64,000 bases of DNA. Source: Burkholderiaceae bacterium (GTDB lineage Bacteria > Pseudomonadota > Gammaproteobacteria > Burkholderiales > Burkholderiaceae_A). The stretch spans positions 62,001 through 126,000 of the forward strand of contig JAGYIP010000008.1 in NCBI GenBank assembly GCA_018402635.1. Reading direction: 5' to 3'. The position numbers and the translations under genes were made by a program. A model generated the notes under the pieces. It saw nothing but the letters and a program-made list of their open reading frames with translations. It was not told the origin of the DNA and ran no database searches. Of this stretch, positions 23,943 to 38,672 are shown one piece after another; the first letter of the stretch is position 1, and each line of letters opens with the position of its first letter.

Positions 23943-25028
23943 CTATTGCGGCTTAAAGGCATCGGGGTCCTCGATTGTTGGCTTGTTGAAGACATCGCGA
24001 ATCACAAGAAAGTCCAGCGCCCGGCCGGAGGGCTCGGAGAACAAAATACGCACGGGCAGGTTCTGGTCGGCTGCGTCAAGCCAGATTTCAATCTGACCCT
24101 CACGATTTGATTGCAGGCGCTCACTAACAAGCCGTACTGCAGTCACAACAATGCCGCCAGGTAGAACAATGTCCTCGGGCAGCTCGGCACGAAAACTTGC
24201 CTCGACAAAGCGACGTCGGCCGGCAATCGTTACCTCCGTGGTTCCGCCATACCGAAGGGAATCGGGATTGCGCTGACTTAGCCAGGAGAGCTGAAAAATG
24301 ATGCTAAGCCGGTCCTGAAAGTCTTGCGGAAGCTCCAGCGGCGCCTGGCCCTGCTCCAGAACAGCGGTTCCAGATTCCGCATCAAAGCGGCTTTCGGAGA
24401 CTCCGCGAAAGGGCGTCTGCTGGCGGTAGAGCTCGGGCCGAAGGCCCTGGTCATCAATTCGGCCCTTGCTCTCAAAGACAACCGGTTCACGAACAAAGAA
24501 GGCCGCCCAGCCTTCTGCCTTAGCCCAGAGTCGAAGTCGGTAGCGGTCTGGGCTGGGAAACTCCACCCATAGCTCACCCCGCCCGAGGGGGTCGCCATCA
24601 AGTGCGTAGCGACCAAGATAGGCCTGCACAGCCAGAACGCCCGAGACGGGCAGGCGCGGGCCTGCCCCCACCGGCCCCTGCCCAGCGGCCTCGACGGGCG
24701 CCGCATCGCTTGCCTCGGTCGCATCGGCCAAAGCGTCCACGGGCTGAACCTCTGAGAGATCGGGCTCAGGGCTTGGCTCTGGCTGCAGCTCTTGCTCGGC
24801 TGCCCCCATAGGCAGGACTGGTGTCTGGGCCGCGGGAGGCTCAGGTTCAGGCTGCGGAAGGTTGGGCTCGGGCTCAGGCTCGGGCTCGGGCGATGCAAGC
24901 TCAATGGCGATGGATTCAAGGCTTGGCAGGACCGAAATCACCGGTCGAAACAGGCCAATGCTTATCAGCCAGACAAGCAAGGCATGAACAAGGACCGACA
25001 GCGCTAGGCTGCCAAGAAAGGGTTTCAT
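23943..25028 (-). CDS. DUF3108 domain protein with TonB-like N-terminus
   Basis: This 361-residue protein has an N-terminal membrane anchor (MKPFLGSLALSVLVHALLVW). A Pro/Glu-rich spacer follows (ASPEPEPEPEPNLPQPEPEP, about 45-65) with a further acidic Ala/Pro stretch to about residue 130. The C-terminal domain is DUF3108-like: it starts around AYLGRYALDGDPLGRGELWV and includes GILFSEPSGRALDFLV-type ending (here RILFSEPSGRALDFLVIRD). The anchor plus Pro/Glu linker resembles TonB, suggesting a periplasm-spanning protein, but no TonB C-terminal domain is seen. Function is not established. It is divergent from phaM with only 30 bases between starts. Confidence 0.75.
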   Translation of the reverse strand: MKPFLGSLALSVLVHALLVWLISIGLFRPVISVLPSLESIAIELASPEPEPEPEPNLPQPEPEPPAAQTPVLPMGAAEQELQPEPSPEPDLSEVQPVDALADATEASDAAPVEAAGQGPVGAGPRLPVSGVLAVQAYLGRYALDGDPLGRGELWVEFPSPDRYRLRLWAKAEGWAAFFVREPVVFESKGRIDDQGLRPELYRQQTPFRGVSESRFDAESGTAVLEQGQAPLELPQDFQDRLSIIFQLSWLSQRNPDSLRYGGTTEVTIAGRRRFVEASFRAELPEDIVLPGGIVVTAVRLVSERLQSNREGQIEIWLDAADQNLPVRILFSEPSGRALDFLVIRDVFNKPTIEDPDAFKPQ

Positions 25029-25058
25029 TGGGCGGCTGCTCGCATTACACTGAACCGA

Positions 25059-25568
25059 ATGGATATGCCAAAAGACCCTTTCGCATTTTTCAAGACCGCC
25101 TGGCCCGGATTCCAGTCTGCGGGAGGGTCGATGGCCTCCATGGCCATGGCCAGTTCCGACCCGGCAGAGCTTGAAAAACGCATTGCCGATCTAAAAACCG
25201 TTGAACAATGGCTCGACTTTAACCTGACTCTGTTGCGTACGACCATTCAGGGCCTGGAGATCCAAAGGGGTACCTTGCTTGCCCTCAAGGCTTGGCAAAA
25301 CCAAGGGTCCGAATCCGACGCTGCAAGCACAGACGGCAAGGACCCTGGCGCCGATGCGAACCTTTGGTGGACGGCCATGCAAGACCAGTTTCAGCAGCTT
25401 ATGCAGGCCGCACAGAACCTTCAAACCGAGGCTGCGTCGGCCTCTGGCTTTCAGGCTGCAGGCGCCTCAAAAGACGGTCAGGGTTCATCCGAACGATCGG
25501 CCAAGAAAAAGCCTGCTGCTAAAAAACCAGCCCGGGCTTTTGCTGCAAAGGCTGTTAAGCGACCCTAG
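25059..25568 (+). CDS. PhaM-like polyhydroxybutyrate granule protein
   Basis: The 169-residue protein resembles PhaM of Burkholderiales, which activates PHB synthase and ties granules to the nucleoid. The central block ELEKRIADLKTVEQWLDFNL and LTLLRTTIQGLEIQRGTLLA (about 30-70) is the recognisable core. The C-terminus is a Lys/Ala/Pro tail (KKKPAAKKPARAFAAKAVKRP-like, positions about 148-169) typical of DNA binding. No phaC, phaA or phaB is in the window, so the PHB link rests on family resemblance. A second ATG two codons downstream is an alternative start. Confidence 0.75.
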   Translation: MDMPKDPFAFFKTAWPGFQSAGGSMASMAMASSDPAELEKRIADLKTVEQWLDFNLTLLRTTIQGLEIQRGTLLALKAWQNQGSESDAASTDGKDPGADANLWWTAMQDQFQQLMQAAQNLQTEAASASGFQAAGASKDGQGSSERSAKKKPAAKKPARAFAAKAVKRP

Positions 25569-25591
25569 GCGAGCCTCGGCCTCCCAAGTGG

Positions 25592-26525
25592 CTAGAGCGA
25601 GTGGCGGTGGCGCCAGTCGAGGACTGACTTGGTTAGATCTGAAAATTCGGTGACAACGCGAATGCCATCGGGTGCCCTACGGCTAAGCACAGGGCAACGC
25701 CCTCCCGCCCAGATTTCAACAGACTTCGGCAGCTTAGCCCGCAGCTCGGTAAGGCCATCAACTACGAGCGTCGGGTTCATGACCGGTGAAAACGAGAGCA
25801 CGACCAGATCGATGTCCTGGGCTTGTGCAGCAAGCACGATGTCCCAGACTGGCGTCTGGACGCCTAGAGAAAAACAACGGCAGCCCTCTAGTGCAAGAAG
25901 GGCCTCCACCATAAGAAGGCCCATGCCATGGGGCTCGGATGGAAAGGTGGTTAGCAAGACCCTGGGGCGACTACCTGGCTGCGGAATGGTGCTGATGGCG
26001 TTGCGCAGAACAACCTGCATCGACTCCGTAAACAAATGCTCTTCATAAATCTCAAGCTGACCACGGGCCCAGGTATCGCCTACTTTTTCAGTCAGCGGGG
26101 CAACCAGTTCTGAGACAAAACGGGCAAGCCCCAGGCGCAGCACGCGTTGGCTTAGCTGGCGTCGAAGGTCTTCAATCTCATGCGATTTAAGAACATTCAT
26201 GAACTGATCAAGGTCGGCGGCCTGGTCTTCGGAGGCAATTGGCGCGGGCTGAGACACCGACTCTGCGAGAGCCTGAAGGTCTTCTAGGCTAAGGCCAATA
26301 ATTTTCCCAGGCCGATAACCAATGTCCATAAGGCGCCGTATGGCCCTAAGGCGGTCCACCTGGTCGATGGAGTAGATTCTTTCGCCAAAGTGATCGCGCT
26401 CGGGATTCGGAAACCCATAGCGCCGCTCCCAGACACGCAAGAGTGTCTTTCGAGAGCCCTGTGTCGCGCTCAACTGCAGCGATACTCAGGTGGATGGGGG
26501 CTTTGATGGGTTGATCCATAAGCAT
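25592..26525 (-). CDS. LitR/CarH-type MerR regulator, cobalamin photoreceptor (single-base frameshift)
   Basis: This is a MerR-family repressor of the LitR/CarH group, which uses adenosylcobalamin as a light sensor. Repaired length is about 310 residues. The HTH reads IAAVERDTGLSKDTL, then RVWERRYGFPNP. It is broken by one extra A on the plus strand at 26439-26440; the downstream frame alone could start at a TTG (26473) and would lack the first HTH helices. The B12 domain has the CarH-type W-x9-EH capping motif (WARGQLEIYEEH, W135 to H146 of the downstream frame). It also has PSEPHGMG with the likely cobalt-ligating His182, then SLGVQTP, VLSFSPV and AGGRCPV. Start ATG at 26525 (or 26519). It is divergent from gpx across a dyad operator. 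The shift may be a sequencing error, as in four other genes here. Confidence 0.85.
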
Positions 26526-26554
26526 TCGACAGAGTTGACGAGAAAACCCTTCTT

Positions 26555-26582
26555 TGTCATAGACAAATATTTGACCATGACA
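26555..26582. promoter_or_regulatory. 28-bp dyad operator between litR and gpx
   Basis: The outer arms TGTCAT (26555-26560) and ATGACA (26577-26582) and the inner palindrome CAAATATTTG (26564-26573) share one centre. Overall 12 of 14 base pairs match. It sits in the divergent promoter region, overlapping the -35 box of the gpx promoter. A MerR-type dimer or tetramer, most simply the adjacent LitR, is the expected ligand. That assignment is inference. Confidence 0.7.
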
Positions 26583-26599
26583 CGGTTACTGCCTAGTAT
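26571..26599 (+). promoter_or_regulatory. Promoter of the gpx-folE2-cfa operon
   Basis: TTGACC (26571-26576) and TAGTAT (26594-26599) are separated by 17 bases, a good housekeeping-type promoter 44 bases before the gpx ATG. Its -35 lies inside the dyad operator, so bound repressor would block RNA polymerase. The downstream leader has a small hairpin GGAC-AAAAA-GTCC (26624-26636) just before the start codon. The sequence does not show an ECF-type promoter. Confidence 0.65.
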
Positions 26600-26642
26600 A
26601 GAACTTCTAATTTCAAATGACTAGGACAAAAAGTCCCTCACC

Positions 26643-27242
26643 ATGACAAACTTGTTTAACCCCTTCCGTTTTCTACTGCTTGCCGGATTCTTTGTGCTTG
26701 CGCCCATGCTTGGTCTGACCATCAACCAGGCTCAGGCAGCCCCCTCTTCGGCAGGTTGTCCCGCACTGCTTAACCAGACCTTTGCGCAGCTCCAAGATGA
26801 CGAGCCTCGTTCGCTTTGCGAGTTTCAGGGCAAGGTCGTCTTGGTTGTGAACACCGCCAGCTTCTGTGGCTTTACTCAACAATACGAAGGCCTTGAGGCG
26901 CTCTATCGGAATTACAAGGACCAAGGACTTGTGGTTCTGGGCTTTCCTTCCAATGACTTTGGAAACCAAGAGCCGGGCTCGAACCAACAGATTGCTGAAT
27001 TCTGTTCCAATACCTTCTCAGTTCGCTTTCCCATGTTTGCCAAGACGAAGGTACGAGGGCCAGGCGCAAACCCACTATTTGCTGAGCTTGCTCGGCTTGC
27101 TGAAGCGCCTGGTTGGAATTTTCACAAATACCTCATTGGCAGGGATGGCAGGCTTGTCTCAAGCTATTCAAGTGCTGTCTCCCCTAATAGCCGTCGACTT
27201 CGTAGCGACTTACAGGCTGCCCTTAGCTCCAAACCCCTGTAA
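26643..27242 (+). CDS. Glutathione peroxidase family protein, exported
   Basis: The 199-residue protein is a thiol peroxidase of the glutathione-peroxidase (BtuE/Gpx) family, reducing organic or lipid hydroperoxides. It has a cleavable-type signal peptide (about 1-32, ending AQA). The mature core has VVLVVNTASFCGFTQQYEGL with the peroxidatic Cys, then GFPSNDFGNQEPG (usually FPCNQFG) and WNFHKYLIGRDG. Export would place it in the periplasm, near membrane lipids. No clear Shine-Dalgarno is seen; a small hairpin ends six bases before the ATG. First gene of the putative LitR operon. Confidence 0.85.
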   Translation: MTNLFNPFRFLLLAGFFVLAPMLGLTINQAQAAPSSAGCPALLNQTFAQLQDDEPRSLCEFQGKVVLVVNTASFCGFTQQYEGLEALYRNYKDQGLVVLGFPSNDFGNQEPGSNQQIAEFCSNTFSVRFPMFAKTKVRGPGANPLFAELARLAEAPGWNFHKYLIGRDGRLVSSYSSAVSPNSRRLRSDLQAALSSKPL

Positions 27243-27302
27243 CTTCCTCTGATCCCCTCTGATGCATTACAACGCTGCACGAAACATTAACGAAAGGCTG
27301 CC

Positions 27303-28100
27303 ATGAACGCACCCGAGAAGATTGACCAACTGCCCGATATCCAGTCAAGCCTTGATACCCGACGCCTTGCTATTCAGAAGGCAGGCATTCGTGGCATGCG
27401 CCATCCTGTGATGGTTCAAACCCCCACCGGGGCTCAGCCTTCGGTGGCCGATGTTGAGATGACAGTAGGCCTGCCGGCAGAGGCCAAGGGCACTCATATG
27501 TCACGCTTCATTGAGGTCTTTCAAGACCACGAGGCCCCACTTGGCTTTGAAAGCGTTAAGTCCCTCATGGCCAAGATGCTGACTCGGCTTGAGGCAGTTG
27601 AAGGCGAGCTTATCGTTCGCCTGCCTTACTTCACGCGCAAGCAGGCTCCTGTCTCGGGCGTAAGTTCGTTAATGGACTACGAAATGACCTGGACGGTTCG
27701 TCAGCTTGAGCAGTCCGAGGTTTTATTGAAGATGGTTGTGCCAGTGACAAGCCTCTGCCCCTGCTCCAAAAACATCTCCGACTATGGAGCCCACAACCAG
27801 CGCTCCCATGTCACCATCACCGCTCGGCTTAATTCCGAACTCAACCCCGAGGCCCTTATTCGCGTGGCCGAACAGGCTGCATCGTGCGAGCTCTGGGGGC
27901 TGCTTAAGCGTCCTGACGAGAAATACGTCACCGAACGCGCCTACGACAACCCCAAGTTTGTGGAAGACCTCGTACGCGACATTGCTCTAGGACTTCAACG
28001 GCTGCCTTGCGTTGATGGTTTTAGCGTGGAGTCTGAGAACTTCGAATCCATTCATAACCATTCGGCCTACGCAAAGATCGTTCATAACTTTGCCGACTAA
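27303..28100 (+). CDS. folE2: GTP cyclohydrolase FolE2
   Basis: The 265-residue enzyme is the type IB GTP cyclohydrolase, converting GTP to dihydroneopterin triphosphate for folate or pterin synthesis without strict zinc dependence. The active-site stretch SLCPCSKNISDYGAHNQRS contains Cys152 and Cys154; GIRGMRHPV and GTHMSRFIEV are further family signatures. It is 60 bases after gpx. In pseudomonads folE2-type genes are known among light/LitR-responsive genes, where the pterin may serve photolyase; no photolyase gene is in this window. Confidence 0.93.
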   Translation: MNAPEKIDQLPDIQSSLDTRRLAIQKAGIRGMRHPVMVQTPTGAQPSVADVEMTVGLPAEAKGTHMSRFIEVFQDHEAPLGFESVKSLMAKMLTRLEAVEGELIVRLPYFTRKQAPVSGVSSLMDYEMTWTVRQLEQSEVLLKMVVPVTSLCPCSKNISDYGAHNQRSHVTITARLNSELNPEALIRVAEQAASCELWGLLKRPDEKYVTERAYDNPKFVEDLVRDIALGLQRLPCVDGFSVESENFESIHNHSAYAKIVHNFAD

Positions 28101-29460
28101 GCCGCATGTTGTTGTTATTGGCTCGGGCATCGCGGGCCTATCCACCGCCTGGCATCTAAGGCACGAGGCTCGCCTAACCATTGTTGAGGCGGGCATGCGG
28201 CTCGGCGGGCACACCCACACCCGTTCGATCACTCTCAATGGCGTTACCGGGCCGGTGGATACCGGTTTTATTGTCTTTAATCATCAGACCTACCCGCTTT
28301 TCACGCCCTGGCTTGCCGAGCTTGGCGTTGAGACATCCGCCTCGGACATGTCATTTTCAGTCTCTGTGGACGAAGGGGCCTTTGAGTGGTCTGGTAGCAA
28401 CCTGCGTTCGGTCTTCGCTCAGCCGAGTAACGCACTTCGGCCTGGTTTTTGGGCCATGCTGCGCGAGATCTTAAAGTTCAACAAAAAGGCGCCTGAAGAC
28501 GCTGCTGCCATTGAGGCTGGCCTCAAGGCCAATGTCGGTCTGGGCAATTACCTTGATTCAGAGGGCTACAGCGAACTCTTTCAAAGGGCCTACCTGTTGC
28601 CCATGGCGGGGGCCATTTGGTCATGCCCCACCGAAACCATGCGCGGCTATCCCCTTACAAGTTTTGTTAGGTTCTGCAGCAACCACGGACTGCTTCAGGT
28701 GCAGAACCGGCCGCCCTGGTACACCCTAAGCCAAGGCAGTAATAGCTACATTGATGCCATGCTTCACCGCATGCGAGATGAGAAGGTCATGCCAGAGCTT
28801 CGGCTTAACCATCGGGTTGAGTCCCTTGCGCTGGGTCCCGCTTTGCTGGAAACTGATAACGGCCGACCTCACCACAGCCTTGAAGTTCTAGGCCACGACC
28901 AGCAGACCAACACGCCGTTTAAGCTCAATGCCGATGCCGTCGTGCTGGCCTGTCACTCCAACCAAGCCGCCCAGATTCTTAGCGGCACACAGCATCCTGC
29001 TCTGCCCATGCTGCATGCCATCAATTTCCAGCCCAACATCGCCTACCTGCACCTCGATGCCTCGCTCATGCCACGCCGTCGAGCAGCATGGGCCTCGTGG
29101 AATTATTTAAGTCAGACAAAACAAGAGGCGTCATCGGCGGTAAGCGTGACCTACTGGATGAATCGGCTTCAGCCGCTTGTCTTTGCGGAGGATGTCTTCG
29201 TAAGCCTGAACCCGCATCGTCCTCCTGACTCGAAGAAAACGCTTGAAGAAGTCAGCTACGAGCATCCCATCTTCAACGACGCAGCCGTCAAAGCGCAGGC
29301 CGGTCTTGAAGGTGTTCAGGGCAGCCAAGGGGTCTGGTTTGCTGGGGCATGGACGGGCTTTGGCTTTCATGAGGACGGTTTTCGGGCAGGAAAACAGGCT
29401 GCCGACTCTTTACGCAGCCGTGTCTGCGCGGCGCCGCAAGCGCTCGCCAAGGCGGCATGA
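28090..29460 (+). CDS. FAD-dependent amine-oxidase-like oxidoreductase
   Basis: This protein of roughly 456 residues belongs to the NAD(P)-binding/flavin amine-oxidase superfamily found beside DUF1365 and cfa genes. The Rossmann dinucleotide motif VVVIGSGIAGLSTAWHL is at the N-terminus, followed by EAGMRLGGHTHTR. The C-terminal FAD motif includes GVWFAGAWTGFGFHEDGF. The start is uncertain: no ATG precedes the Rossmann motif closely, and a TTG at 28090 overlapping the folE2 stop is used. It ends in an ATGA overlap with the DUF1365 gene. In alphaproteobacterial clusters similar proteins act on methylated or unsaturated acyl chains; substrate here is unknown. Confidence 0.85.
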   Translation: MPTKPHVVVIGSGIAGLSTAWHLRHEARLTIVEAGMRLGGHTHTRSITLNGVTGPVDTGFIVFNHQTYPLFTPWLAELGVETSASDMSFSVSVDEGAFEWSGSNLRSVFAQPSNALRPGFWAMLREILKFNKKAPEDAAAIEAGLKANVGLGNYLDSEGYSELFQRAYLLPMAGAIWSCPTETMRGYPLTSFVRFCSNHGLLQVQNRPPWYTLSQGSNSYIDAMLHRMRDEKVMPELRLNHRVESLALGPALLETDNGRPHHSLEVLGHDQQTNTPFKLNADAVVLACHSNQAAQILSGTQHPALPMLHAINFQPNIAYLHLDASLMPRRRAAWASWNYLSQTKQEASSAVSVTYWMNRLQPLVFAEDVFVSLNPHRPPDSKKTLEEVSYEHPIFNDAAVKAQAGLEGVQGSQGVWFAGAWTGFGFHEDGFRAGKQAADSLRSRVCAAPQALAKAA

Positions 29461-30260
29461 ACGAGTCCATCGCCCGTATTGTCTGGGGGCGAGTCGGCCA
29501 CACACGGTTTCGGCCCATCGTTCATCGGTTTAAGACGCGAGCCTTCTACCTACAACTTCCCCTTCGGTCAATGGAGCAGCAAGCCCAGCGCGGCGAGCTC
29601 ACTGCCAAGGGCGCTGGTCGCCTCTGGGCGGTTGACAAGTCAGCCCTGCTGTCGGTCTGGTCAAAGGACCATGGTGATGGCAGACCATTGCTCAAGTGGG
29701 CAGAAAACCAGCTTCAGGTTGCAGGCATTCATGATTCGGACGGTGAGATCTGGCTCACCACCTTCCCCCGCGTGCTTGGTTATGCCTTTAAGCCGGTGAG
29801 CTTTTGGTTCTGTGAACGCGGCAATGGCAGCCTGGCCGCCGTTATTGTGGAGGTCAACAACACCTTCCAGGGCCGGCATGTGTATGTTCTTAAGCCCGAC
29901 CAGGGCTATGCGAATGGTCAGACTCTGCATGCCGTTAAGGCCTTCTATGTTTCGCCATTTTTCGAGATCAAAGGCCGCTATGCCTTTCGCTTTTTTCGCA
30001 GCCTAAACCCGGGCGGTCAAGACCTTGCCCGTATCGATTACAGCAGCGAACCCCAGGCAGACAGTCGCTCAGTGGCAATCTCATCGAGCGAGCTTGACCT
30101 CACCACCTACTTAAGCGGGCGATCACGCCCACTTAACGGCTTCACCGCACTTTTGGCCTGGCTAAGCTTTCCAGCATTCAGTCTGAAGGTCATTGTTCAG
30201 ATTCACTGGCATGCCCTGCAGCTCTGGCTCAAAGGATGTCGCCTTGTTCCACGCACCTAA
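29457..30260 (+). CDS. DUF1365 family protein
   Basis: The 267-residue protein opens with RIVWGRVGHTRFRPIVHRFK and contains WLTTFPRVLGYAFKPVSFWF and VYVLKPDQGYANGQTLHAVKAFYVSPF-type blocks, the hallmarks of DUF1365. No biochemical function is firmly assigned to the family. It almost always lies between an amine-oxidase-like gene and a cfa gene, so a shared step in acyl-chain modification is likely. Start and stop are coupled to the upstream gene by an ATGA overlap. Confidence 0.88.
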   Translation: MNESIARIVWGRVGHTRFRPIVHRFKTRAFYLQLPLRSMEQQAQRGELTAKGAGRLWAVDKSALLSVWSKDHGDGRPLLKWAENQLQVAGIHDSDGEIWLTTFPRVLGYAFKPVSFWFCERGNGSLAAVIVEVNNTFQGRHVYVLKPDQGYANGQTLHAVKAFYVSPFFEIKGRYAFRFFRSLNPGGQDLARIDYSSEPQADSRSVAISSSELDLTTYLSGRSRPLNGFTALLAWLSFPAFSLKVIVQIHWHALQLWLKGCRLVPRT

Positions 30261-30282
30261 AGAAAATTAAAAAGACCCGCCT

Positions 30283-31623
30283 ATGCCTCCCTCCTCTGCG
30301 ACTCAACCCGTTCTCATTAACCCAGAAACAGAGGTGCTTCACGCCTCGGGCTCAACAAGCCCGGCCTCCCCAAGAACCAAAAGAGGCCTAAGCGGCCTAC
30401 GGGGCCTTCGCAGTCGGCTGGTTCTATCGGTGCTTAACCGGCTTCGAATAGGCCAGTTGCAGCTTGAACTTCCCGATGGCACCAGCCAGCTTATTTTGGG
30501 AAAAGACGACGCCCAAAGCCAGCGAGCCGACCTAAAAGTCCACCGCTGGCGAGCCCTTAGCGATGCTGGCCTTCGAGGCGACATTGGCTTTGGAGAGGCC
30601 TACATGCGCGGCGACTGGTCAAGCTCGAACCTATCCGCGCTCTTAGGCCTTTTTGCGGCCAATCGCAAGGTCATCGAGCCTGCAATTTATGGCAGCCCCA
30701 TAAGGCTTGTCTGGGATCGCCTGCAGCATCAGCTTCGCGCAAACTCCAGGCGACAATCCCGGCGCAACATTGAGTTTCACTATGACCTGGGCAATGACTT
30801 CTACACGCGATGGCTTGACCCAAGCATGACCTACTCAAGCGCCCTCTTTGACCGCACCGGACAATGGGGCTCTTTGGTGGACCTTCAAGACGGGCAGTTA
30901 CGAAAACTCGATCGGGTGATTGACTGCCTAGAGCAGGCCCCAACAATGTCTGGGTCTCAGCCCAAGGTTCTTGAAATTGGCTGCGGCTGGGGAGGTTTTG
31001 CCGAGCGGCTGTTGCAAAAAAAGGCCGCCCACTACACCGGACTTACGCTCTCGCCCGCGCAAAAGGCCTGGGCCGAAGATCGTATGCGCCAAAAGGGGTT
31101 TGGTTCGAAGGAAAAGGCTTGGCAGTTTCACCTTCAAGATTACCGCGACGCCCAAGACACGTTTGATGCGATTGTCTCCATTGAAATGATCGAGGCCGTT
31201 GGCCAGTCTTACTGGCCAACCTATTTTCAGACCCTGCACGACCGACTTCGCCCGGGGGGACGTGCCGTTATTCAGGCCATCGTTATAAAGGACGCTCTCT
31301 TTGCGCGCTACGCGCGCTCACCCGACTTTATTCAGAAGTACATCTTTCCTGGCGGCATGCTGCTCACCCCTTCGGCCATTCAGACCCAGGCCGAGCGTGT
31401 TGGCCTTAAGGCTGGGGAGCTCTTTGGCTTTGGGCTTGACTATGCGCGAACGCTGCGCGAATGGCTCGAGAGGTTCAACAAAGAAGAGCCCGCCATTCGA
31501 GCCCTGGGTTTTGATGACCGATTCTTCGCGATGTGGAGGTTTTACCTGGCCTATTGCGAGGCTGGCTTTGTTGCGGGTGACATTGATGTGGTTCAGGTCT
31601 GTCTCGATAAACCCAGCCTGTGA
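30283..31623 (+). CDS. cfa: Cyclopropane-fatty-acyl-phospholipid synthase family
   Basis: The 446-residue S-adenosylmethionine-dependent enzyme transfers a methylene or methyl group to unsaturated phospholipid acyl chains at the membrane. Family motifs are HYDLGNDFY (166-174), YSSALFD, the SAM site LEIGCGWGGFAERLL (230-244) and the EMIEAVGQSYWPTYF block. The N-terminal 50 residues are a less conserved extension. Whether it makes cyclopropane, methyl-branched or furan-precursor lipids cannot be told from sequence. It overlaps the next gene by 4 bases. Confidence 0.92.
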   Translation: MPPSSATQPVLINPETEVLHASGSTSPASPRTKRGLSGLRGLRSRLVLSVLNRLRIGQLQLELPDGTSQLILGKDDAQSQRADLKVHRWRALSDAGLRGDIGFGEAYMRGDWSSSNLSALLGLFAANRKVIEPAIYGSPIRLVWDRLQHQLRANSRRQSRRNIEFHYDLGNDFYTRWLDPSMTYSSALFDRTGQWGSLVDLQDGQLRKLDRVIDCLEQAPTMSGSQPKVLEIGCGWGGFAERLLQKKAAHYTGLTLSPAQKAWAEDRMRQKGFGSKEKAWQFHLQDYRDAQDTFDAIVSIEMIEAVGQSYWPTYFQTLHDRLRPGGRAVIQAIVIKDALFARYARSPDFIQKYIFPGGMLLTPSAIQTQAERVGLKAGELFGFGLDYARTLREWLERFNKEEPAIRALGFDDRFFAMWRFYLAYCEAGFVAGDIDVVQVCLDKPSL

Positions 31624-32291
31624 GCACTAAAAAAATGACACCAGCTCAGGCGCATAGGGCCTCAAGGCTGGTTGTGGGCGGCCTGATTGCCTGCGCGACC
31701 TTACTGGGTCATGCGCAGACCCAGCCCCAGGGCTCTGGTGAAACCTCGCAAAAGCCCATGGCCTCAGAGGCAGGCCGGGTTCGGACCTCGAGCGCTCCGC
31801 CAGCCCTTGCCGCGCCTGCCCCCTTGGTCAACTTGGTGGGCCAGCAGGCCCGGCTTTTAGGGGAGGGCAGACTGCGTTTTTTAGGGCTTACGGTCTACGA
31901 GGCGCGCCTTTGGTCGGATACGAAGTCAGAGCCAGGCCGGCTCTTTGAGCGGCCCTTGGCCTTAGAGCTCACCTATCGAACAGGCCTTCAAGGCAGCACC
32001 ATCACCGACTCCAGTCGCGATGAAATTCAAAGGCTTGGCCTGTCGATGAAGCCCGGCCAGCTTGAGTCCTGGGAGACCCAGATGCGCAGCATCTTCCCCA
32101 ATGTCGTCTCGGGGGACCGCATCCTTGGTATTCATCTGCCCAATCGTGGTGCTTTGTTTTTTCTAAATGACCAGCCCATTGGGCAGGTCAACGACTCGGC
32201 CTTCTCAGAGGCTTTTTTTAACATCTGGATCCACCCCGAGACACGCGTTGCTAGCCTTCGAAAAAAGCTGCTCTCCGGGCTTAACCCATAG
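31620..32291 (+). CDS. Chalcone-isomerase-like protein, exported
   Basis: The 223-residue protein has a GTG start overlapping the cfa stop (or ATG at 31635), a signal peptide ending near GHAQT, and a low-complexity linker. The fold domain starts LVNLVGQQARLLGEGRLRFL and includes LTVYEARLWSD and VVSGDRILGIHLPNRGALFF, as in bacterial chalcone-isomerase-like (CHI-like) proteins. Members of this superfamily include fatty-acid-binding proteins, so a lipid-handling role in the periplasm fits the operon. Catalysis on chalcones is not expected. Confidence 0.75.
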   Translation: MSTKKMTPAQAHRASRLVVGGLIACATLLGHAQTQPQGSGETSQKPMASEAGRVRTSSAPPALAAPAPLVNLVGQQARLLGEGRLRFLGLTVYEARLWSDTKSEPGRLFERPLALELTYRTGLQGSTITDSSRDEIQRLGLSMKPGQLESWETQMRSIFPNVVSGDRILGIHLPNRGALFFLNDQPIGQVNDSAFSEAFFNIWIHPETRVASLRKKLLSGLNP

Positions 32292-32317
32292 CCTGCGCCG
32301 GTCGCGCAGCCAAGTCC

Positions 32318-33691
32318 GTGCAGCGGGGTTTTAGGCTTCAGCTTGATGCGGCGCTCTACGGCCTGCCGGGCTTTGTTCTGGCCTTTGCCGCGCTGCCGCT
32401 CTACCTGCTCACCCCCTCCCTCTACTCAAACAGCTTTGGGCTGCCCTTGGCTGCAGTGGGGCTCGTGCTTATGGCCTGTCGGCTTACAGATGCCATTACC
32501 GATCCCTTGGTCGGCAGGCTGCTTGACCAGACCCAGGGGGCCCGGTTTCAGCGCTGGATGATTCCAAGCCTGGTTCTTCTAATGCTGGGATTTGCTGGCC
32601 TTATGAACCCGCCGAAGGCCTTGCTTGCCAGCGATATGCAGCCTGCTCTGCTCGCCTGGCTGGCGGCAACGGTGGTTATCGTCTCCCTTGCCAATAGCGC
32701 GGCCCAGCTTGCCCACCAGAGCTGGGCGATCTCCAGAGGAAAGAGTCTGCGGCAGCAGGCCCGGCTTATCGGCTGGCGCGAGGGTCTTACACTGCTTGGC
32801 GTGATGGTGGCCTCTGTGCTTGCTGCGCAGGCCTTGGTGCTGCCCATGACCGTCGGGGTCATTGGGGTTGGTCTTGTGGCCTTGGTTGTGCTTGTCAGGC
32901 TTCGGCCCGGACACAGCCTTGCCGCACGAGCACAAGCGGCAACAGCGGCCTCGACATTCGGAGATTGGCTTGGCCAACTTTTTTCAGGCTACCGACAGGT
33001 TTTTCATCCCCGCTACAAACAGCTCCTGCTTGCCCTTGGCATCAATGCCCTGGCCAACGCCATACCCGCGAGCCTGTTTCTTTTTTATGTGCGCGATGTG
33101 CTCAAGCTAACAGACCTGATGGCCGGGCTTTTGCTGCTGGCCTACTTCAGCACTGCCGCGCTTTCCATTCCCGCCTGGGGCTGGCTGATGGGCCGCTTCG
33201 GACCAAGGCAGTGCTGGCGCCTTGCCATGTTGGGCTCCATCCTGGCTTTTTTCTGGGCCACTTTCCTGGGTTCGGGCGATGCCCTTGGCTTTGGCGTAAT
33301 CTGTCTGATAACCGGCCTTGCTCTTGGCGCCGAGCTTATTGCGCCGTCGCTTTTCATTGGCCGAATTATCGAAGAGGCTGGGCATCGTGAGGCACTTGAG
33401 GGGCAATATTTCGGGCTTTGGAACCTGCTCGCTAAATCTGCCCTGGCCGTGGCAGCAGGCCTTGTGCTGCCGGCCCTCGCCCTGACCGGCTATGACCCAT
33501 CTGCGGCAATCGCCCAGGGTACCGAGCTTGTAAAAGAGATGGCCGCAGGCATCTCAGTATCAAGTCTTGCGCTTTTTTATGCGGGCCTTCCCTGCCTACT
33601 CAAGCTCATTGCCCTTGGCCTCATTCCCGCTTTCAATAAGGAGCCTTCCGATGCACTCTCCCACCCAGTTGCCCACCACCCTGCCCGTTAA
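32318..33691 (+). CDS. MFS transporter, GPH-like (sugar/cation symporter type)
   Basis: This 457-residue integral membrane protein has about 12 hydrophobic segments. The conserved early loop CRLTDAITDPLVGRLLDQTQG resembles the glycoside-pentoside-hexuronide family. Start is a GTG at 32318, 26 bases after the CHI-like gene; no nearer ATG is in frame. GPH-like transporters of this type recur in similar lipid/light clusters; the substrate is unknown and may be a lipid or lysolipid rather than a sugar. The last 41 bases overlap the DUF3833 gene. Confidence 0.82.
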   Translation: MQRGFRLQLDAALYGLPGFVLAFAALPLYLLTPSLYSNSFGLPLAAVGLVLMACRLTDAITDPLVGRLLDQTQGARFQRWMIPSLVLLMLGFAGLMNPPKALLASDMQPALLAWLAATVVIVSLANSAAQLAHQSWAISRGKSLRQQARLIGWREGLTLLGVMVASVLAAQALVLPMTVGVIGVGLVALVVLVRLRPGHSLAARAQAATAASTFGDWLGQLFSGYRQVFHPRYKQLLLALGINALANAIPASLFLFYVRDVLKLTDLMAGLLLLAYFSTAALSIPAWGWLMGRFGPRQCWRLAMLGSILAFFWATFLGSGDALGFGVICLITGLALGAELIAPSLFIGRIIEEAGHREALEGQYFGLWNLLAKSALAVAAGLVLPALALTGYDPSAAIAQGTELVKEMAAGISVSSLALFYAGLPCLLKLIALGLIPAFNKEPSDALSHPVAHHPAR

Positions 33692-34259
33692 AGAGCCCCG
33701 ACTTCCTAAAGGCCTGCGTCGCGTTATTCTTCTTGGCCTCATGGGCCTAACCGTCGGTCTTGGGCTCTCGGGCTGCGCAAGCCCTAAGCTTGAAGACTAT
33801 GCGGCAGAAAAGCCCGTGCTTGACCTTGAACAATACTTCGCAGGCCAGACAAAGGGCTGGGGCATTGTTCAAGATCGTTTCGGCCGTATTACCCGCCGCT
33901 TCGTCGTGGAGATTGATGGCCGCTTTGAAGGTGACCGTGGCGAGCTTGATGAGCGCTTCGTATGGTCCGACGGCGAGAAGCAAAGACGTGTCTGGCGGCT
34001 GCAGAAGGTGGGTCCGCAACAGTGGATTGGGGAGGCAGACGATGTCGTTGGCCAGGCACAGGGAAGGCTCTCGGGCAATGCGCTTCAATGGGGCTATACC
34101 TTGGCCGTGCCCATTGACGGTCGAACCATCGAGATGCAGTTTGACGACTGGATGGTGCTGGTGGACGACGAGGTGCTTATGAACCGAGCCGTTTTTAGCA
34201 AGTTCGGTATCCGCCTGGGTGAGGTCACCCTCTCTTTTCGTCGTCAAGGCGCGCCTTGA
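33651..34259 (+). CDS. DUF3833 family lipoprotein
   Basis: The 202-residue protein carries a lipoprotein signal (hydrophobic stretch VILLGLMGLTVGLGL followed by lipobox LSGC). The mature part has LDLEQYFAGQTKGWGIVQDR and GRITRRFVVEIDG, typical of DUF3833. Function of the family is unknown. ATG at 33651 is chosen because it precedes the signal with a basic n-region; it lies inside the 3' end of the transporter gene. The stop overlaps the SDR start (TTGA). Confidence 0.82.
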   Translation: MHSPTQLPTTLPVKEPRLPKGLRRVILLGLMGLTVGLGLSGCASPKLEDYAAEKPVLDLEQYFAGQTKGWGIVQDRFGRITRRFVVEIDGRFEGDRGELDERFVWSDGEKQRRVWRLQKVGPQQWIGEADDVVGQAQGRLSGNALQWGYTLAVPIDGRTIEMQFDDWMVLVDDEVLMNRAVFSKFGIRLGEVTLSFRRQGAP

Positions 34260-35104
34260 ACGCTTTGAACTCGCCTGCGGTTAAGGCAAAGGCCTCAGTG
34301 CCCAGCCTTCTCGAGCCCTTTCGGCCACTAAACGACCCCATTAAAGACTGGGCCAATCGAACCGTCTGGCTCGTGGGTGGATCCGAGGGCATTGGACTTG
34401 CCTTGGGTCAGGAACTCTTAGCCAGGGGTGCGCGACTTATTGTCTCTGCCCGGCGGGCCGACCGTCTACTTGAGGCCTTTCCGCAGGCAGAGGTCTTCAG
34501 ACTGGCTTGTGACATCGCACAGCCCGAGAGCCTGCGCTCGGCCTGTGCGTCGCTTGCAAGCGAAGGACGTGTTCCCGATGTTGTCTTTTGGGTGGCAGGC
34601 GTCTATTCGCCCATGCAGTCCTGGAACTTTGACCCCTATGAGGCCGAGAGAACGCTGCGTATTAATCTTTTGTCCTGCTACCACGGGCTGCACGAGGTTC
34701 TCAAGCTCTGGGAGAACAACCCAAGCCCTGCGCGACAGCCCCACTGGGTCTGGGTGTCGAGCGTTGCGGGCTACCGCGGACTTCCTCTGGCCATGGCCTA
34801 CGGGGCGGGAAAAGCGGCGCTTAATCAGCTTGCTGAGATCAACTACCTCGAGCTTCGCCCACGAGGCATTGGGGTAAGCCTGGTGCTGCCGGGCTTTGTA
34901 AAAACCCGGCTGACGGCCCAGAATGACTTTGCGATGCCCGCTCTGTTGAGCCCGGAGGATGCGGCCCGCTACACCCTCAACGGCCTCGCAAAGGGTGATT
35001 TTGAAATCCACTACCCTCGTCGCTTCACCCTTATTCTTAAATTGTTGCGCTGCCTGCCTTATGGCCTTTACTTTCGGCTCGTAGGGCGGTTACGCCAGGG
35101 ATAG
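34256..35104 (+). CDS. Short-chain dehydrogenase/reductase
   Basis: This 282-residue SDR has a TTG start overlapping the previous stop. The cofactor motif VGGSEGIGLALGQEL (Gly41, Gly42, Gly46 and Gly48 region) and the active site with Ser168/Ser169 and Tyr182-x3-Lys186 (AYGAGKAAL) are intact, so it should be catalytically active. Substrate is unknown; SDRs are part of the comparable light/singlet-oxygen clusters. Arg55-Gly-Ala-Arg after the nucleotide fold could suit NADPH, but this is a guess. Confidence 0.87.
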   Translation: MNALNSPAVKAKASVPSLLEPFRPLNDPIKDWANRTVWLVGGSEGIGLALGQELLARGARLIVSARRADRLLEAFPQAEVFRLACDIAQPESLRSACASLASEGRVPDVVFWVAGVYSPMQSWNFDPYEAERTLRINLLSCYHGLHEVLKLWENNPSPARQPHWVWVSSVAGYRGLPLAMAYGAGKAALNQLAEINYLELRPRGIGVSLVLPGFVKTRLTAQNDFAMPALLSPEDAARYTLNGLAKGDFEIHYPRRFTLILKLLRCLPYGLYFRLVGRLRQG

Positions 35105-35109
35105 CTGCC

Positions 35110-35613
35110 ATGACGACATTCGACACAGCCGGCTGGAAGGCGGAGTTCATGAGCCGGGCTGTAGCGCTCACGCCCGAGACGGTGGACCACTTCATGGGCC
35201 TCTATGCACAGGACTGCGACTTCTCGGACCCCTTTCATAGCCTTAAAGGACGCAAGGCCATTGCTCAGGCCTACCGGAGCATGTTTCTTAATCTCCATGC
35301 GCCCTGCTTCACTAACCTTGTCATTGCTGAGGTGACTTCTTTGCGTCCGCAGAGCAAGGCCGCGCCGGACGATGAGCCGCTTGAACTGGCCGCGCGCTGG
35401 GTGTTCCGATTTGCTGTGGGGCCGGGTAAGCCCATGCAGGCCATTGCGGGAACCAGTTGGCTTCTTGTGGACTGCAGGACAGGCCTAATAACACGTCATG
35501 AAGACCATTGGGACGCCGCCTCACTTTTTGAATCGTTTGGGGCCTTATCGTGGGCGGTGCGTTTCCTTCGCCAAAGGGTTGCTCGTGCCGCGCTTGTCAC
35601 CAACATGACTTGA
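35110..35613 (+). CDS. NTF2-like (SnoaL-type) protein
   Basis: The 167-residue protein has the cone-shaped NTF2/SnoaL fold signature: VDHFMGLYAQDCDFSDPFHS, LKGRKAIAQAYRSMF, and the strand GLITRHEDHWDAASL. Such proteins act as small enzymes or ligand-binding domains. It follows the SDR by 5 bases and belongs to the same transcript. A role on a hydrophobic lipid-derived intermediate is an inference from context only. Confidence 0.8.
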   Translation: MTTFDTAGWKAEFMSRAVALTPETVDHFMGLYAQDCDFSDPFHSLKGRKAIAQAYRSMFLNLHAPCFTNLVIAEVTSLRPQSKAAPDDEPLELAARWVFRFAVGPGKPMQAIAGTSWLLVDCRTGLITRHEDHWDAASLFESFGALSWAVRFLRQRVARAALVTNMT

Positions 35614-35635
35614 AAGATGCATAAAATAAGAGGCT

Positions 35636-36499
35636 ATGAAGTCAATCTCCGCCCACCACATGCTTTATCCCGAACTCTTTCGTGCCTTTGAGCGCGTGCG
35701 CTGGGATTTAGAAAACGACATTCACTGGTCGCAGTTCGATGCCACTCGGCTTAGTGACGAGCAGGCGCTTACCATCAAAATGAATGCCATTACCGAGTGG
35801 GCCGCCCTGCCCGCCACCGAAATGTTTCTTCGCGACAATCGTCACGACAGCGACTTCTCGGCATTCATGTCGGTCTGGTTCTACGAAGAACAGAAACACA
35901 GCCTGGTCTTAATGGAGTACCTGCGGCGGTTTCGCCCCGAGTTTCTACCCACCGAGGCCGAGCTTCATGCTGTTCGTTTTGAGTTCGACCCGGCCCCCGC
36001 CCTTGAGACGCTCATGCTGCATTTTTGCGGCGAGATCCGCCTCAACCACTGGTACCGGTGCGCCGCGCAATGGCACAGCGAGCCCGTCATTAAACAAATC
36101 TACGAAACCATCGCCAAAGACGAGGCCAGGCATGGGGGGGCCTACCTTCGCTACATGAAAAAGGCACTTGCCCAGATGGGCGACTCGGCACGTGCTGCCT
36201 TCTCAAAAATTGGTGTGCTCATGGCCTCGGCCCATCGAACGGCCAAGGCCTTGCATCCCACCAACCTGCATGTCAACGAGGCACTCTTTCCTAACGATAC
36301 GGTGCAAAGCCGGCTTCCCGAGCCCGGTTGGCTTGAGAGATGGCTCGATGAGCAAATTCAATTCGATGCGGGCTGGGAGAAAAAGGTTGCCGAGCGCATT
36401 TTGCACAACCTCTCCTTGCTCTTTGAGCAGCCCTTTAGCTCTGTGCAAGAGCTCAATCGGTTTCGCAAATCGTTTGCCCTAGCGGCTTCAGTCTCTTAA
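35636..36499 (+). CDS. Ferritin-like diiron protein, possible fatty-acid desaturase/oxygenase type
   Basis: The 287-residue, mostly helical protein carries two ExxH motifs, E85-Q-K-H88 and E163-A-R-H166, with extra acidic candidates E62 and E133 at the expected spacing. This is a complete carboxylate-bridged diiron ligand set, like acyl-ACP desaturases and R2-like proteins. There is no signal peptide. The gene is 22 bases after the NTF2-like gene and reads as the end of the operon. Its stop codon shares bases (TTAA) with the convergent coaX stop. Role in O2-dependent acyl-chain chemistry is inferred. Confidence 0.75.
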   Translation: MKSISAHHMLYPELFRAFERVRWDLENDIHWSQFDATRLSDEQALTIKMNAITEWAALPATEMFLRDNRHDSDFSAFMSVWFYEEQKHSLVLMEYLRRFRPEFLPTEAELHAVRFEFDPAPALETLMLHFCGEIRLNHWYRCAAQWHSEPVIKQIYETIAKDEARHGGAYLRYMKKALAQMGDSARAAFSKIGVLMASAHRTAKALHPTNLHVNEALFPNDTVQSRLPEPGWLERWLDEQIQFDAGWEKKVAERILHNLSLLFEQPFSSVQELNRFRKSFALAASVS

Positions 36500-37415
36500 A
36501 ACTGCGTCTGTCTCCAGGCTCTAAGGCCCTGCAAGACCAGACCAGGGGCATGCACCACAACAGGATTGCTGTTTTGGCCATCCAAAGATCTTTGGCCTGC
36601 CGCCTCAGAGGCAGCACGAAAGTCCTTTAGCCACTGACGGGCAAAGCCCCGTGCACCGCAACAAGGCCAGGCCGGCCCCGAGAAAAAACCCCCGAGACCT
36701 CTGCCTGGGCAATGCCTGCCTGCACAGCCCTTCGTGTCACCACTGGGCTTTTTGGGCCCAGGCCTGCTGCAGACTGGTTTAAGGCCATTGCCATCAGGCC
36801 ATAGCCGGGGCGAATGGTTCCTCCCTGAAAATAAAAACGGGTCGTGGCTTGCGATGACGAGGCGTCGATGCCAAGCCAGTCCACCACAGTGGCCGTACCT
36901 GCAGAGACCAAGACCACCGGCGCATCGGCCTGCCCATCGGCTGCAATCAGCCCTTGCCAGAGCCTGGGGCTTGCCACAAGACCCAACAGCGCTGCCCACC
37001 GATCCGAGCCCAGTTGCCGAGCCGTCCTGTAGCTGTTTAAAAGCTCAAGGGTGCCGCCAGAATAGGCTGGGACCGTGCCTGGACTGAGCGTTACCTTTGC
37101 CTGGCTCAGAAACTGCCTGGCCCGGCATCCAAAGAAGTTGCAGACAGCAGCAACCAGGGCTTCGGTTTGATGGGGTGGGGCGACCGAACAATAGACCAGC
37201 TCGAGCCCACGAGCTTGCAACCCTGTCGACCCAGCCGACGAACCTGGGTGGACCTGCTGGGCAATCGCCATTGCCATGGACGTTGCCATTGCCTTAGGGC
37301 TGCGCGCACCAGACTCCCACGGCACCGAGTAGACGGGCCCAAGCCTTTGCCTATTGGGCTGAGCAAGGCACCACTTCACCGCAGTGTTGCCCATATCGAC
37401 AAGCAGATGGTTCAT
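36496..37415 (-). CDS. coaX: Type III pantothenate kinase (single-base frameshift)
   Basis: CoaX phosphorylates pantothenate in the first step of coenzyme A synthesis. Residues MNHLLVDMGNTAVKWCLAQ hold the phosphate-binding DxGNT motif; LGSDRWAALLGLV, VLVSAGTATVVDWLG and GGTIRPGYGLM are further family motifs. The main frame would stop at 36627 after VHGALPVSG. One more base in the C run 36647-36650 restores VHGGFARQWLKDF and continues to VHAPGLVLQGLRAW at 36496, a normal CoaX C-terminus. A missed homopolymer base is likely. Start at the ATG before NHLLVDMGN is preferred over one six codons upstream. Confidence 0.85.
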
Positions 37416-37463
37416 AGAACTGCGCCTCGCCATTTATTTGGGGACCTTGGCATCATAAGGGGC

Positions 37464-38672
37464 ATGCGAGCAAGCCGCCGACATTCGTCAAAAGGTTCGA
37501 GCCTATGGGGTCTGTGGCTGGTTGCCCTGGGCTATGGGCTTGCGCTAACAAGCGTCAGCCTCTTTCCTTTTGTCGGCTGGCGGGATGCCCCGGGGCTGCC
37601 CTGGGCTTTTCTCGTCGAAGATCTGCCGCGCTACCGGACCCAGTTCGATATCTGGTCGAACCTGCTGGCTTACATTCCAATGGGTCTGGTCTGGGCAAGC
37701 CTTTTTAGTCGACTGAAACATCCAAGGAGCCAGGGTGCGAGCCCGACCTATGGCCCGATGCTCAAGGCGGTTCTGCTGTGCATCAGCCTATCTTTTTTAA
37801 TGGAATGCCTGCAGACCTACCTGCCCACCCGACGCGCCCAGTGGCTCGACCTTCTTACCAATAGCCTGGGTGGTCTTGCAGGCGCGCTTCTCTGGGCCTT
37901 GGGTCGACGTGTGCAGAGCATCTACCAGAGGCAGCGCCGTCCTTTTCGTGGAGTAATTTGCATGACACCTTTGCCAGGGGGGTGGCCCATTGGTCTTGGC
38001 CTGATGGGCCTATGGTTTTTTGCACAGGCAAGCGGTCAGAGCCCCTGGCTTGCCATGTCACGCAATTCTCTGGCGGCTCTTGGCTTGTCGACGCAGGTCT
38101 TTCATCTAAGTCCGGGAGGCGTTGCAATGATTGCCCTTGAGGCCGCTCTTACGGCAAGCCACCTGATCTGCCTGGCGGTGCTTATACGGCTTACTCTTTT
38201 GGGGCTTGGTAGCGCATGGGCCAATCGACTGCAGGCGCAATGGTCCATGGTGCTTGGCCTCACGCTCTTTGGGGCTGTTCTAATTCGTGGTTTCTGGATA
38301 TGGCAGCTCTTACCTGGCGCCTCTGGGGACGCCTTGCTTTTGCTTGACGCCCTGCGCGGATGGCTTAACCCGGGTGTTCAGACGGGTTTGTTTCTGGCAG
38401 GATTAATTGGAGCGGCAGCCTTCGCACTGGAGGAGCGAGGGCTTGCAAAGCTTGGGGTGGTGCTCATCTGTCTAGCGCTTGGCCTTTCGGCAGGCCTTGG
38501 CCCCTCGGAGAGCAGCTCAGCGCTTGCCGGATGGAGCACCCGACACTGGTCCAATCTTCAGGGGCTTGCCTATTTCTGCTTTGAGGCCTGGCCACTGGCC
38601 TTTCTTATGTGGATGCTGATGATCGCCAGTCAACAGTCTCCACAAAGCCTTGGTCGACGTGTTTCACGATAA
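37464..38672 (+). CDS. VanZ-like integral membrane protein
   Basis: The 402-residue protein has an N-terminal VanZ-like domain: LTSVSLFPFVGWRD, then FDIWSNLLAYIPMGLVWASL and LMECLQTYLPTRRAQWLDLL-NSLGG. Several further hydrophobic segments make the C-terminal half. The ATG at 37464 has an AAGGGG ribosome site just upstream; the frame continues open before it, antisense to coaX, and is ignored. Function is unknown; VanZ-type proteins are linked to cell-envelope or antibiotic phenotypes in Gram-positives. The ferredoxin gene follows by 17 bases. Confidence 0.83.
   Translation: MRASRRHSSKGSSLWGLWLVALGYGLALTSVSLFPFVGWRDAPGLPWAFLVEDLPRYRTQFDIWSNLLAYIPMGLVWASLFSRLKHPRSQGASPTYGPMLKAVLLCISLSFLMECLQTYLPTRRAQWLDLLTNSLGGLAGALLWALGRRVQSIYQRQRRPFRGVICMTPLPGGWPIGLGLMGLWFFAQASGQSPWLAMSRNSLAALGLSTQVFHLSPGGVAMIALEAALTASHLICLAVLIRLTLLGLGSAWANRLQAQWSMVLGLTLFGAVLIRGFWIWQLLPGASGDALLLLDALRGWLNPGVQTGLFLAGLIGAAAFALEERGLAKLGVVLICLALGLSAGLGPSESSSALAGWSTRHWSNLQGLAYFCFEAWPLAFLMWMLMIASQQSPQSLGRRVSR

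Follow-up and report, generated by a model that had tools for sequence, protein, structure and literature searches.

A LitR-linked, probable furan fatty acid gene run with attached gpx, folE2 and diiron genes in Burkholderiales, a candidate light- and B12-gated operon

In a 64,000-nucleotide stretch of contig JAGYIP010000008.1 from a Burkholderiaceae bacterium (the window; genome 1.96 Mb, completeness rating 83%), eleven tightly spaced genes lie on one strand, divergent from a gene for a LitR/CarH-type regulator of the MerR family. The explanation we favor, and think rather probable, is that the whole is a furan fatty acid (ufa) operon gated through LitR by light and vitamin B12, with genes for a glutathione peroxidase (gpx), a GTP cyclohydrolase (folE2) and a diiron protein attached to it. 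The twelve genes had been named in an initial annotation made from the letters, and their positions and identities hold under Pfam and NCBIfam profile calls, which give, in run order, GSHPx, FolE2, amino oxidase, DUF1365, CMAS, Chalcone_3, MFS_2 (GPH), DUF3833, short-chain dehydrogenase (SDR), SnoaL/NTF2-like and the diiron protein, the last matching FA_desaturase_2 at 37.6 bits (cut-off 22.7). Junctions between the eleven genes run from -47 to +60 bp, with nine of the ten at 26 bp or less. The closest named loci belong to Burkholderiales, Burkholderiaceae or Betaproteobacteria metagenome-assembled genomes (MAGs).

The predicted products of the core match the published pathway UfaD-UfaO-UfaM, so the core is known in kind: the amine-oxidase-like, DUF1365 and cfa-like genes are contiguous and place the three families side by side, an assignment made from domains, the gene triad and co-conservation. 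UfaM, UfaD and UfaO turn vaccenate chains into a furan fatty acid in Rhodobacter, DUF1365 is found in UfaO homologues, three further genes of the R. sphaeroides ufa operon are dispensable for the product, and the R. palustris homologues are numbered consecutively as RPA2571, 2570 and 2569 (PMC7380195). Genes for furan fatty acids belong to the core targets of sigmaE-ChrR (PMC6852236); Chlamydomonas CFA1, CFA2 and GPX5 are induced by singlet oxygen along with a DUF1365 gene (PMC4067076); and in Vibrio cholerae a cyclopropane fatty acid (CFA) synthase gene is raised by blue light, with MerR and ChrR mediating the response (PMC5241685). The lipid module that the initial annotation had proposed can be specified, from the UfaD, UfaO and UfaM families standing together, as a probable furan fatty acid module.

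That the product is instead a cyclopropane or simple methyl-branched fatty acid seems to us quite unlikely. The methyltransferase does fall in the CMAS family with E. coli Cfa as its best solved relative, but the canonical Cfa pocket is not matched: of C139, E239, H266, I268 and Y317, which we take to be the pocket residues, two positions differ and E239, I268 and Y317 are kept. Across 47 aligned UfaM rows, a count that includes the window and six duplicate contigs, serine stands at the C139 position in 46 (the other is unreadable) and glutamine at the H266 position in all 47, and UfaD and UfaO homologues lie beside ufaM wherever the contig is uncut. The UfaO model is good (predicted local distance difference test, pLDDT, 84.7) and gives weak nitrobindin-like structural matches only, with no Protein Data Bank (PDB) match at E ≤ 0.001.

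Relatives share the gene order, which is thus not chance; its presence in them, in Limnobacter and in Parvibium is new. When the co-occurrence check suggested in the initial annotation was run across relatives, 19 of 29 loci around the diiron gene kept the same order on a single strand for 7 or more of the 11 genes, 14 of them for all 11. Three others (L060, L061 and L063; L and G numbers are our handles for loci and genomes) have 8-10 of the genes with the ufa run divergent from the diiron gene, four (L039, L056, L065, L066) are cut by contig ends, and three (L057, L062, L064) have the diiron gene without the rest of the run. Among named loci, taken as the best 80 of at least 585, 14 preserve the order for 7 or more genes, six of them duplicating loci of the first set. 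Mean identities to the window, calculated over 16 loci of its family with the close L038-L040 and the contig-cut loci left out, are 33-56% for UfaD, UfaO, UfaM and the chalcone-like and MFS proteins, 36-62% for the DUF3833, SDR and NTF2-like proteins, 58-73% for FolE2, Gpx and LitR, and 80-87% for the diiron protein, which is the best-conserved member. L049 (G007) has no match for the gpx, chalcone-like, SDR and NTF2-like genes but retains folE2, the ufa trio, MFS, DUF3833 and diiron.

The divergent regulator is a probable B12 light sensor that probably represses the adjoining operon in the dark. Its helix-turn-helix (HTH) matches MerR_1 at 33.6 bits (cut-off 21.6), and both B12 domains are present, B12-binding_2 at 29.6 bits (cut-off 23) and B12-binding at 33.3 (cut-off 32.1); its long open piece aligns to Thermus CarH across the MerR and B12 domains. 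The genome holds its own domain for cob(I)alamin adenosyltransferase, which is needed for making adenosylcobalamin (AdoCbl). Aligned to CarH, the window LitR retains the W, E, H and H corresponding to W131, E141, H142 and H177, proven AdoCbl-binding residues of CarH (PMC11796333), which bears out the initial annotation on the type of regulator and its B12 residues. The same four are retained in 34 of 36 LitR rows, counting the window and four duplicate contigs, the exceptions being L218, without W, H142 and H177, and L163, which is unreadable. The light-signature elements GxxW, EH and GxxxP are present in the window. Since it scores 114.8 bits against the CarH equivalog NF052513, far under the cut-off of 400, we name it a class-I-like LitR and not CarH.

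The operon could be real and LitR no longer a sensor of B12 or light, answering oxidative signals or a partner instead, in the manner of class II LitR, which acts through a LOV protein. Class II proteins need no B12 and retain one of the two B12 domains only (PMC9758184), a LitR-less genus (g3) lacks LitR in all seven genomes searched and keeps the operon, and the L218 protein has lost three of the four residues. We judge this unlikely, however, as the window protein has, over the cut-off, the C-terminal B12-binding domain missing from class II, the four residues are so widely retained, and the palindrome described below is unlike the class II sites.

A second complication is that the window litR frame is broken inside the HTH, between DTL and RVWERRYG. 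The long open piece covers 25592-26473 and the N-terminal HTH half lies in another frame up to about 26525, so the listed open reading frame (ORF) start (TTG, 26473) is not the natural N-terminus. The break is most likely an assembly error, because the essential rpoC gene (9965-14226, minus strand) of the same window is likewise divided between two ORFs that overlap and differ in frame (12130-14226, the N-part, and 9968-12385, the C-part), and because the relatives G005 and G006, 94-95% identical, have LitR in a single frame of 313-320 residues. In a third near relative, G010, LitR itself is broken, further along. A LitR killed by frameshift, leaving the operon constitutive, is very improbable to our mind, as the window palindrome is intact and a second FolE2 is retained in the window genome.

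The palindrome TTGTCnnnGACAA (TTGTC-N3-GACAA) is proposed as the candidate operator of LitR. It is perfect in the window and adjoins the -35 box of the predicted promoter, ending 4 bp before it. Alone, with at most one mismatch, it has 3 sites in the window against 1.9 expected and is no rarer than chance; together with the -35 box it makes a single exact match in the 64 kb. The promoter scan gave 3 promoter-like sites against 3.3 in shuffles, and the promoter matters only because similar boxes are shared by relatives. In whole-genome searches, the gap between litR and the operon held the exact palindrome in 11 of 11 LitR-bearing genomes; exact copies number 0-7 per genome over 14 genomes (0-4 for the reversed control) and 1-7 in the LitR-bearing ones. 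No copy stands at the operon in LitR-less G014 and G020, and the G024 operon start is lost at a contig end. At operon starts with a divergent LitR, a set from which the duplicate contigs L158, L160, L161 and L162 were dropped and which loci with no divergent partner (e.g., L201 and L228) do not enter, the exact palindrome is found at 15 of 16 in the window's family and at 7 of 14 in other families (L059, L226, Limnobacter L177, L181 and L186, and MAGs L184 and L190), with a one-mismatch form at 3 more of the 14, Parvibium L163 among them. It is absent, even at one mismatch, from all four readable LitR-less starts (L041, L053, L055, L058), a contrast close to one evolutionary event because three of the four come from one genus. 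L041, from the window's own genus, has kept the -35 and -10 boxes and the palindrome is gone. It is this loss of palindrome and LitR together that speaks most strongly for the palindrome being the LitR site.

A second GTP cyclohydrolase also tracks LitR. Eighteen genomes were searched for both enzyme types, and a further cyclohydrolase was found elsewhere in 12 of the 12 that have LitR and the operon folE2 (G000, G002, G003, G004, G007, G011, G013, G015, G021, G026, G027, G034). The operon folE2 is the only cyclohydrolase found in LitR-less G014, G020, G022 and G024 (another elsewhere in 0 of 4), and these being one genus, with genomes 70-92% complete, this comparison too is near one evolutionary event. 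G019 and G036, with LitR and without the operon folE2, hold a cyclohydrolase at another locus. The sole copy of a folate enzyme would not be expected in a gated operon, and the second-copy pattern therefore fits LitR gating. FolE2 is not a lipid gene, being a folate/pterin enzyme and the only GTP cyclohydrolase found in four LitR-less relatives.

Weighing against the proposal, besides the base of both contrasts in largely one genus, the domain-level assignment of the ufa genes, the low CarH equivalog score and the broken HTH frame, are the following. The light-signature GxxH reads SxxH in the window LitR. One LitR-bearing start within the window's family (L073) and 4 of the 14 in other families (L063, L166, L218, L230) have no palindrome beside LitR. 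Three tandem CarH-type 11-bp repeats were no better than mononucleotide shuffles (0.37 in the window), the scan never reaching 0.05 in 32 of 34 intergenic regions (four duplicate contigs included; exceptions L166 and L218), so that a three-repeat CarH operator finds no support. For the unit nnnnTnnACAn, there are two tandem near-repeats in the window's family, the third is not above shuffles, and the register is lost in Limnobacter loci. Because the three-repeat test failed, the palindrome and not a direct repeat is taken as the conserved element. Lastly, all the steps tested are genomic.

Two other candidates were tried and set aside: a sigmaE-type TGATC-N16..19 promoter in the LitR-less relatives, with one match (L058) and none in three others, and a palindrome-defined regulon, for which 14 genomes gave 27 non-operon sites, none of the seven inspected being clearly a light-gene promoter site. 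The genome's own photolyase locus, on another contig, has no palindrome. Of the seven inspected sites, two lie a short way upstream of a ccoN-like gene, each in a different genus (L255 at 4308, G013; L256 at 4103, G003), which may be chance inside a conserved small gene, and one, in LitR-less G024 (L258 at 4585), is within an ORF adjoining the 3' end of a photolyase-like ORF.

The diiron protein carries two invariant ExxH motifs, E85-x-x-H88 and E163-x-x-H166. Its model (pLDDT 77.3) weakly resembles the soluble acyl-acyl carrier protein (ACP) desaturases (PF03405; PDB 1afr, 2uw1, 7t63), whose four-helix diiron fold provides the best structural matches, at 15-17% identity, template modeling (TM) scores of 0.41-0.56 and E = 9e-4 at best; we found no function assigned to it. 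Of 250 genomes from the order, 106 have the diiron gene and 120 have DUF1365 (76 both, 30 diiron only, 44 DUF1365 only, 100 neither; Fisher p 1e-10, kinship ignored), and the two are within 15 kb in 51 of the 76. Given the phaM-diiron-rfaE2 block, we do not accept this association as proving a function. The diiron gene belongs to an older block, phaM-diiron-rfaE2-coaX, which explains part of the closeness between diiron and ufa genes: 32 of 47 other loci have a same-strand rfaE2 downstream of it, and among the best 80 named diiron loci rfaE2 is found in 67, a phaM-like gene in 48, ufaO in 23, gpx in 20, litR in 16 and folE2 in 11. Its place at the operon end may be positional. The single pathway that the initial annotation had drawn through the whole run is not borne out, given FolE2, the 30 of 106 diiron-bearing genomes that have no DUF1365, and the frequency of rfaE2 near the diiron gene.

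We see an even chance that diiron, perhaps along with gpx and folE2, is a mere neighbor: the LitR-ufa cluster would lie between phaM and diiron within the older block phaM-diiron-rfaE2-coaX-birA, and the pathway would consist of the ufa genes alone. The block counts above speak for this, as do the 30 genomes without DUF1365 and G213 (L122), a 1.2-Mb genome rated 100% complete that keeps diiron without DUF1365, which suggests an important separate role. On the other side, the ufa operon beside diiron is seen in either orientation, diiron follows litR in Noviherbaspirillum L201 where no ufa gene lies within 10 kb, and gpx-diiron pairs without ufa genes in view are found at four loci (L167, L218, L229, L110). 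In addition, 274 genomes sampled in the class place diiron in 7 from other orders at 64-71% identity; in L155 (7660-10479) the genes after it on its strand are one of the photolyase family and one reading like dihydrofolate reductase, and in L156 it adjoins a photolyase-family gene, ufaD, ufaO and ufaM. The other five have none of these genes in the 9-16 kb fetched, two have an adjoining SDR, and only G471 has DUF1365 anywhere. Because diiron recurs with LitR alone, gpx alone, ufa in either orientation and a photolyase-family gene, it might be a LitR-linked lipid (or pterin) oxygenase/desaturase of a general bacterial light response, with FolE2 duplicated so that one copy came under light control and the spare lost where LitR was lost; we offer this larger reading tentatively and hold it as doubtful.

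Features of the run and its flanks are collected in Table 1.

Table 1. Features of the window in and around the LitR-ufa run
Feature	Position	Strand	Basis
litR, LitR/CarH-type MerR regulator (HTH frame broken)	25592..26525	-	Profiles and relatives
Palindrome TTGTCATAGACAA, candidate LitR operator	26554..26566	strandless	Motif searches and relatives
Sigma-70-like promoter TTGACC-N17-TAGTAT	26571..26599	+	Promoter scan; similar boxes in relatives
gpx, glutathione peroxidase, signal-peptide-like N-terminus (read from sequence)	26643..27242	+	Pfam
folE2, GTP cyclohydrolase IB	27303..28100	+	Pfam, NCBIfam
ufaD-like flavoprotein, amine oxidase family	28090..29460	+	Pfam; gene triad as in PMC7380195
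ufaO-like protein, DUF1365	29457..30260	+	Pfam
ufaM-like S-adenosylmethionine (SAM) methyltransferase, CMAS family	30283..31623	+	Pfam; Ser/Gln at E. coli Cfa C139/H266
Chalcone-isomerase-like protein	31620..32291	+	Pfam
MFS/GPH transporter	32318..33691	+	Pfam
DUF3833 lipoprotein-like	33651..34259	+	Pfam
Short-chain dehydrogenase (SDR)	34256..35104	+	Pfam
NTF2/SnoaL-like protein	35110..35613	+	Pfam
Acyl-ACP-desaturase-like diiron protein, best-conserved gene of the run	35636..36499	+	Pfam, alignment, structure model
phaM, left flank of older block	25059..25568	+	NCBIfam
coaX (type III pantothenate kinase), right flank of older block	36627..37433	-	Pfam; NCBIfam matches under cut-offs

For two genes, a start other than the listed one is more likely from the sequence, TTG 28090 for ufaD and ATG 33651 for the DUF3833 gene. 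An Rfam scan of 25000-37600 found no family reaching its gathering score. At 36500-36626, downstream of the window diiron gene, rfaE2 is missing and coaX comes next; rfaE2 was not seen in the nearest relative, L157, either. At L218 (8127-10816), a LitR relative without W, H142 and H177 is divergent from gpx-diiron, possibly a B12-independent mini version.

Gene content and order, the promoter-like boxes, the B12-site residues, the link of the palindrome with LitR within the family and that of the second cyclohydrolase with LitR are what the sequences here give directly. In the LitR-gated mechanism we favor, the class-I-like LitR with AdoCbl would bind the palindrome abutting the -35 box and repress the gpx promoter in the dark; light would break the Co-C bond of AdoCbl, LitR would leave the DNA, and the operon would be read. 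UfaM would then methylate a vaccenoyl phospholipid, UfaD would desaturate the methylated chain, and UfaO would add an O2-derived oxygen, giving a furan fatty acid able to quench singlet oxygen. Gpx, probably exported, would reduce peroxides, the extra FolE2 copy would raise the pterin/folate supply in light, and the diiron gene would be co-transcribed from its older position beside rfaE2. The light and B12 response, the lipid product and the co-transcription are what we infer, as are any roles of the chalcone-like, MFS, DUF3833, SDR and NTF2 proteins.

Among known systems, the 9M5-FuFA pathway of Rhodobacter sphaeroides and Rhodopseudomonas palustris has the same flavoprotein, DUF1365 protein and CMAS-type methyltransferase together (PMC7380195). 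The R. sphaeroides ufa genes are a core target of sigmaE-ChrR, the singlet oxygen system (PMC6852236), whereas those here lie beside LitR, with gpx, folE2, chalcone-like, NTF2-like and diiron genes added. Nearer in regulation is the class II LitR of Pseudomonas (PplR/PmlR), also a LitR-family repressor, in whose regulon phrB, an SDR, an FAD oxidoreductase, ufaM and a GTP cyclohydrolase are light-induced (PMC9758184). The Pseudomonas protein is LOV-dependent and B12-independent, unlike the LitR here with its two B12 domains; its operator is TGTACA-N12-TGTACA and not TTGTC-N3-GACAA; FolE is in a separate operon with folM and folX, whereas FolE2 here is within the ufa operon; and phrB is in the light regulon, whereas the photolyase here is on another contig. 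CarH of Thermus, Bacillus and Myxococcus (PMC9304148) has the W, E, H and H in common with the window LitR and a repressor-type site over or beside the -35 box, but has carotenoid genes as its target and uses tandem 11-bp repeats, which are unsupported here, and the window LitR scores below the equivalog cut-off. The initial annotation had called the gene set unusual, and this stands in part: no report of gpx, folE2 and diiron in one ufa run was found, but LitR control of ufaM and folE by light is published (PMC9758184). Already known, then, are the ufa core and the Pseudomonas light control; new is what appears from sequence to be a LitR-linked ufa regulon with a candidate operator and a different set of attached genes.

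With these results, furan fatty acid genes linked to LitR are seen beyond Pseudomonas, in several groups of Burkholderiales, with the proposal testable in Limnobacter and Parvibium, and a concrete candidate operator is supplied. The relatives with and without LitR, among which a second GTP cyclohydrolase goes with LitR, provide a natural contrast, and a highly conserved diiron enzyme is singled out.

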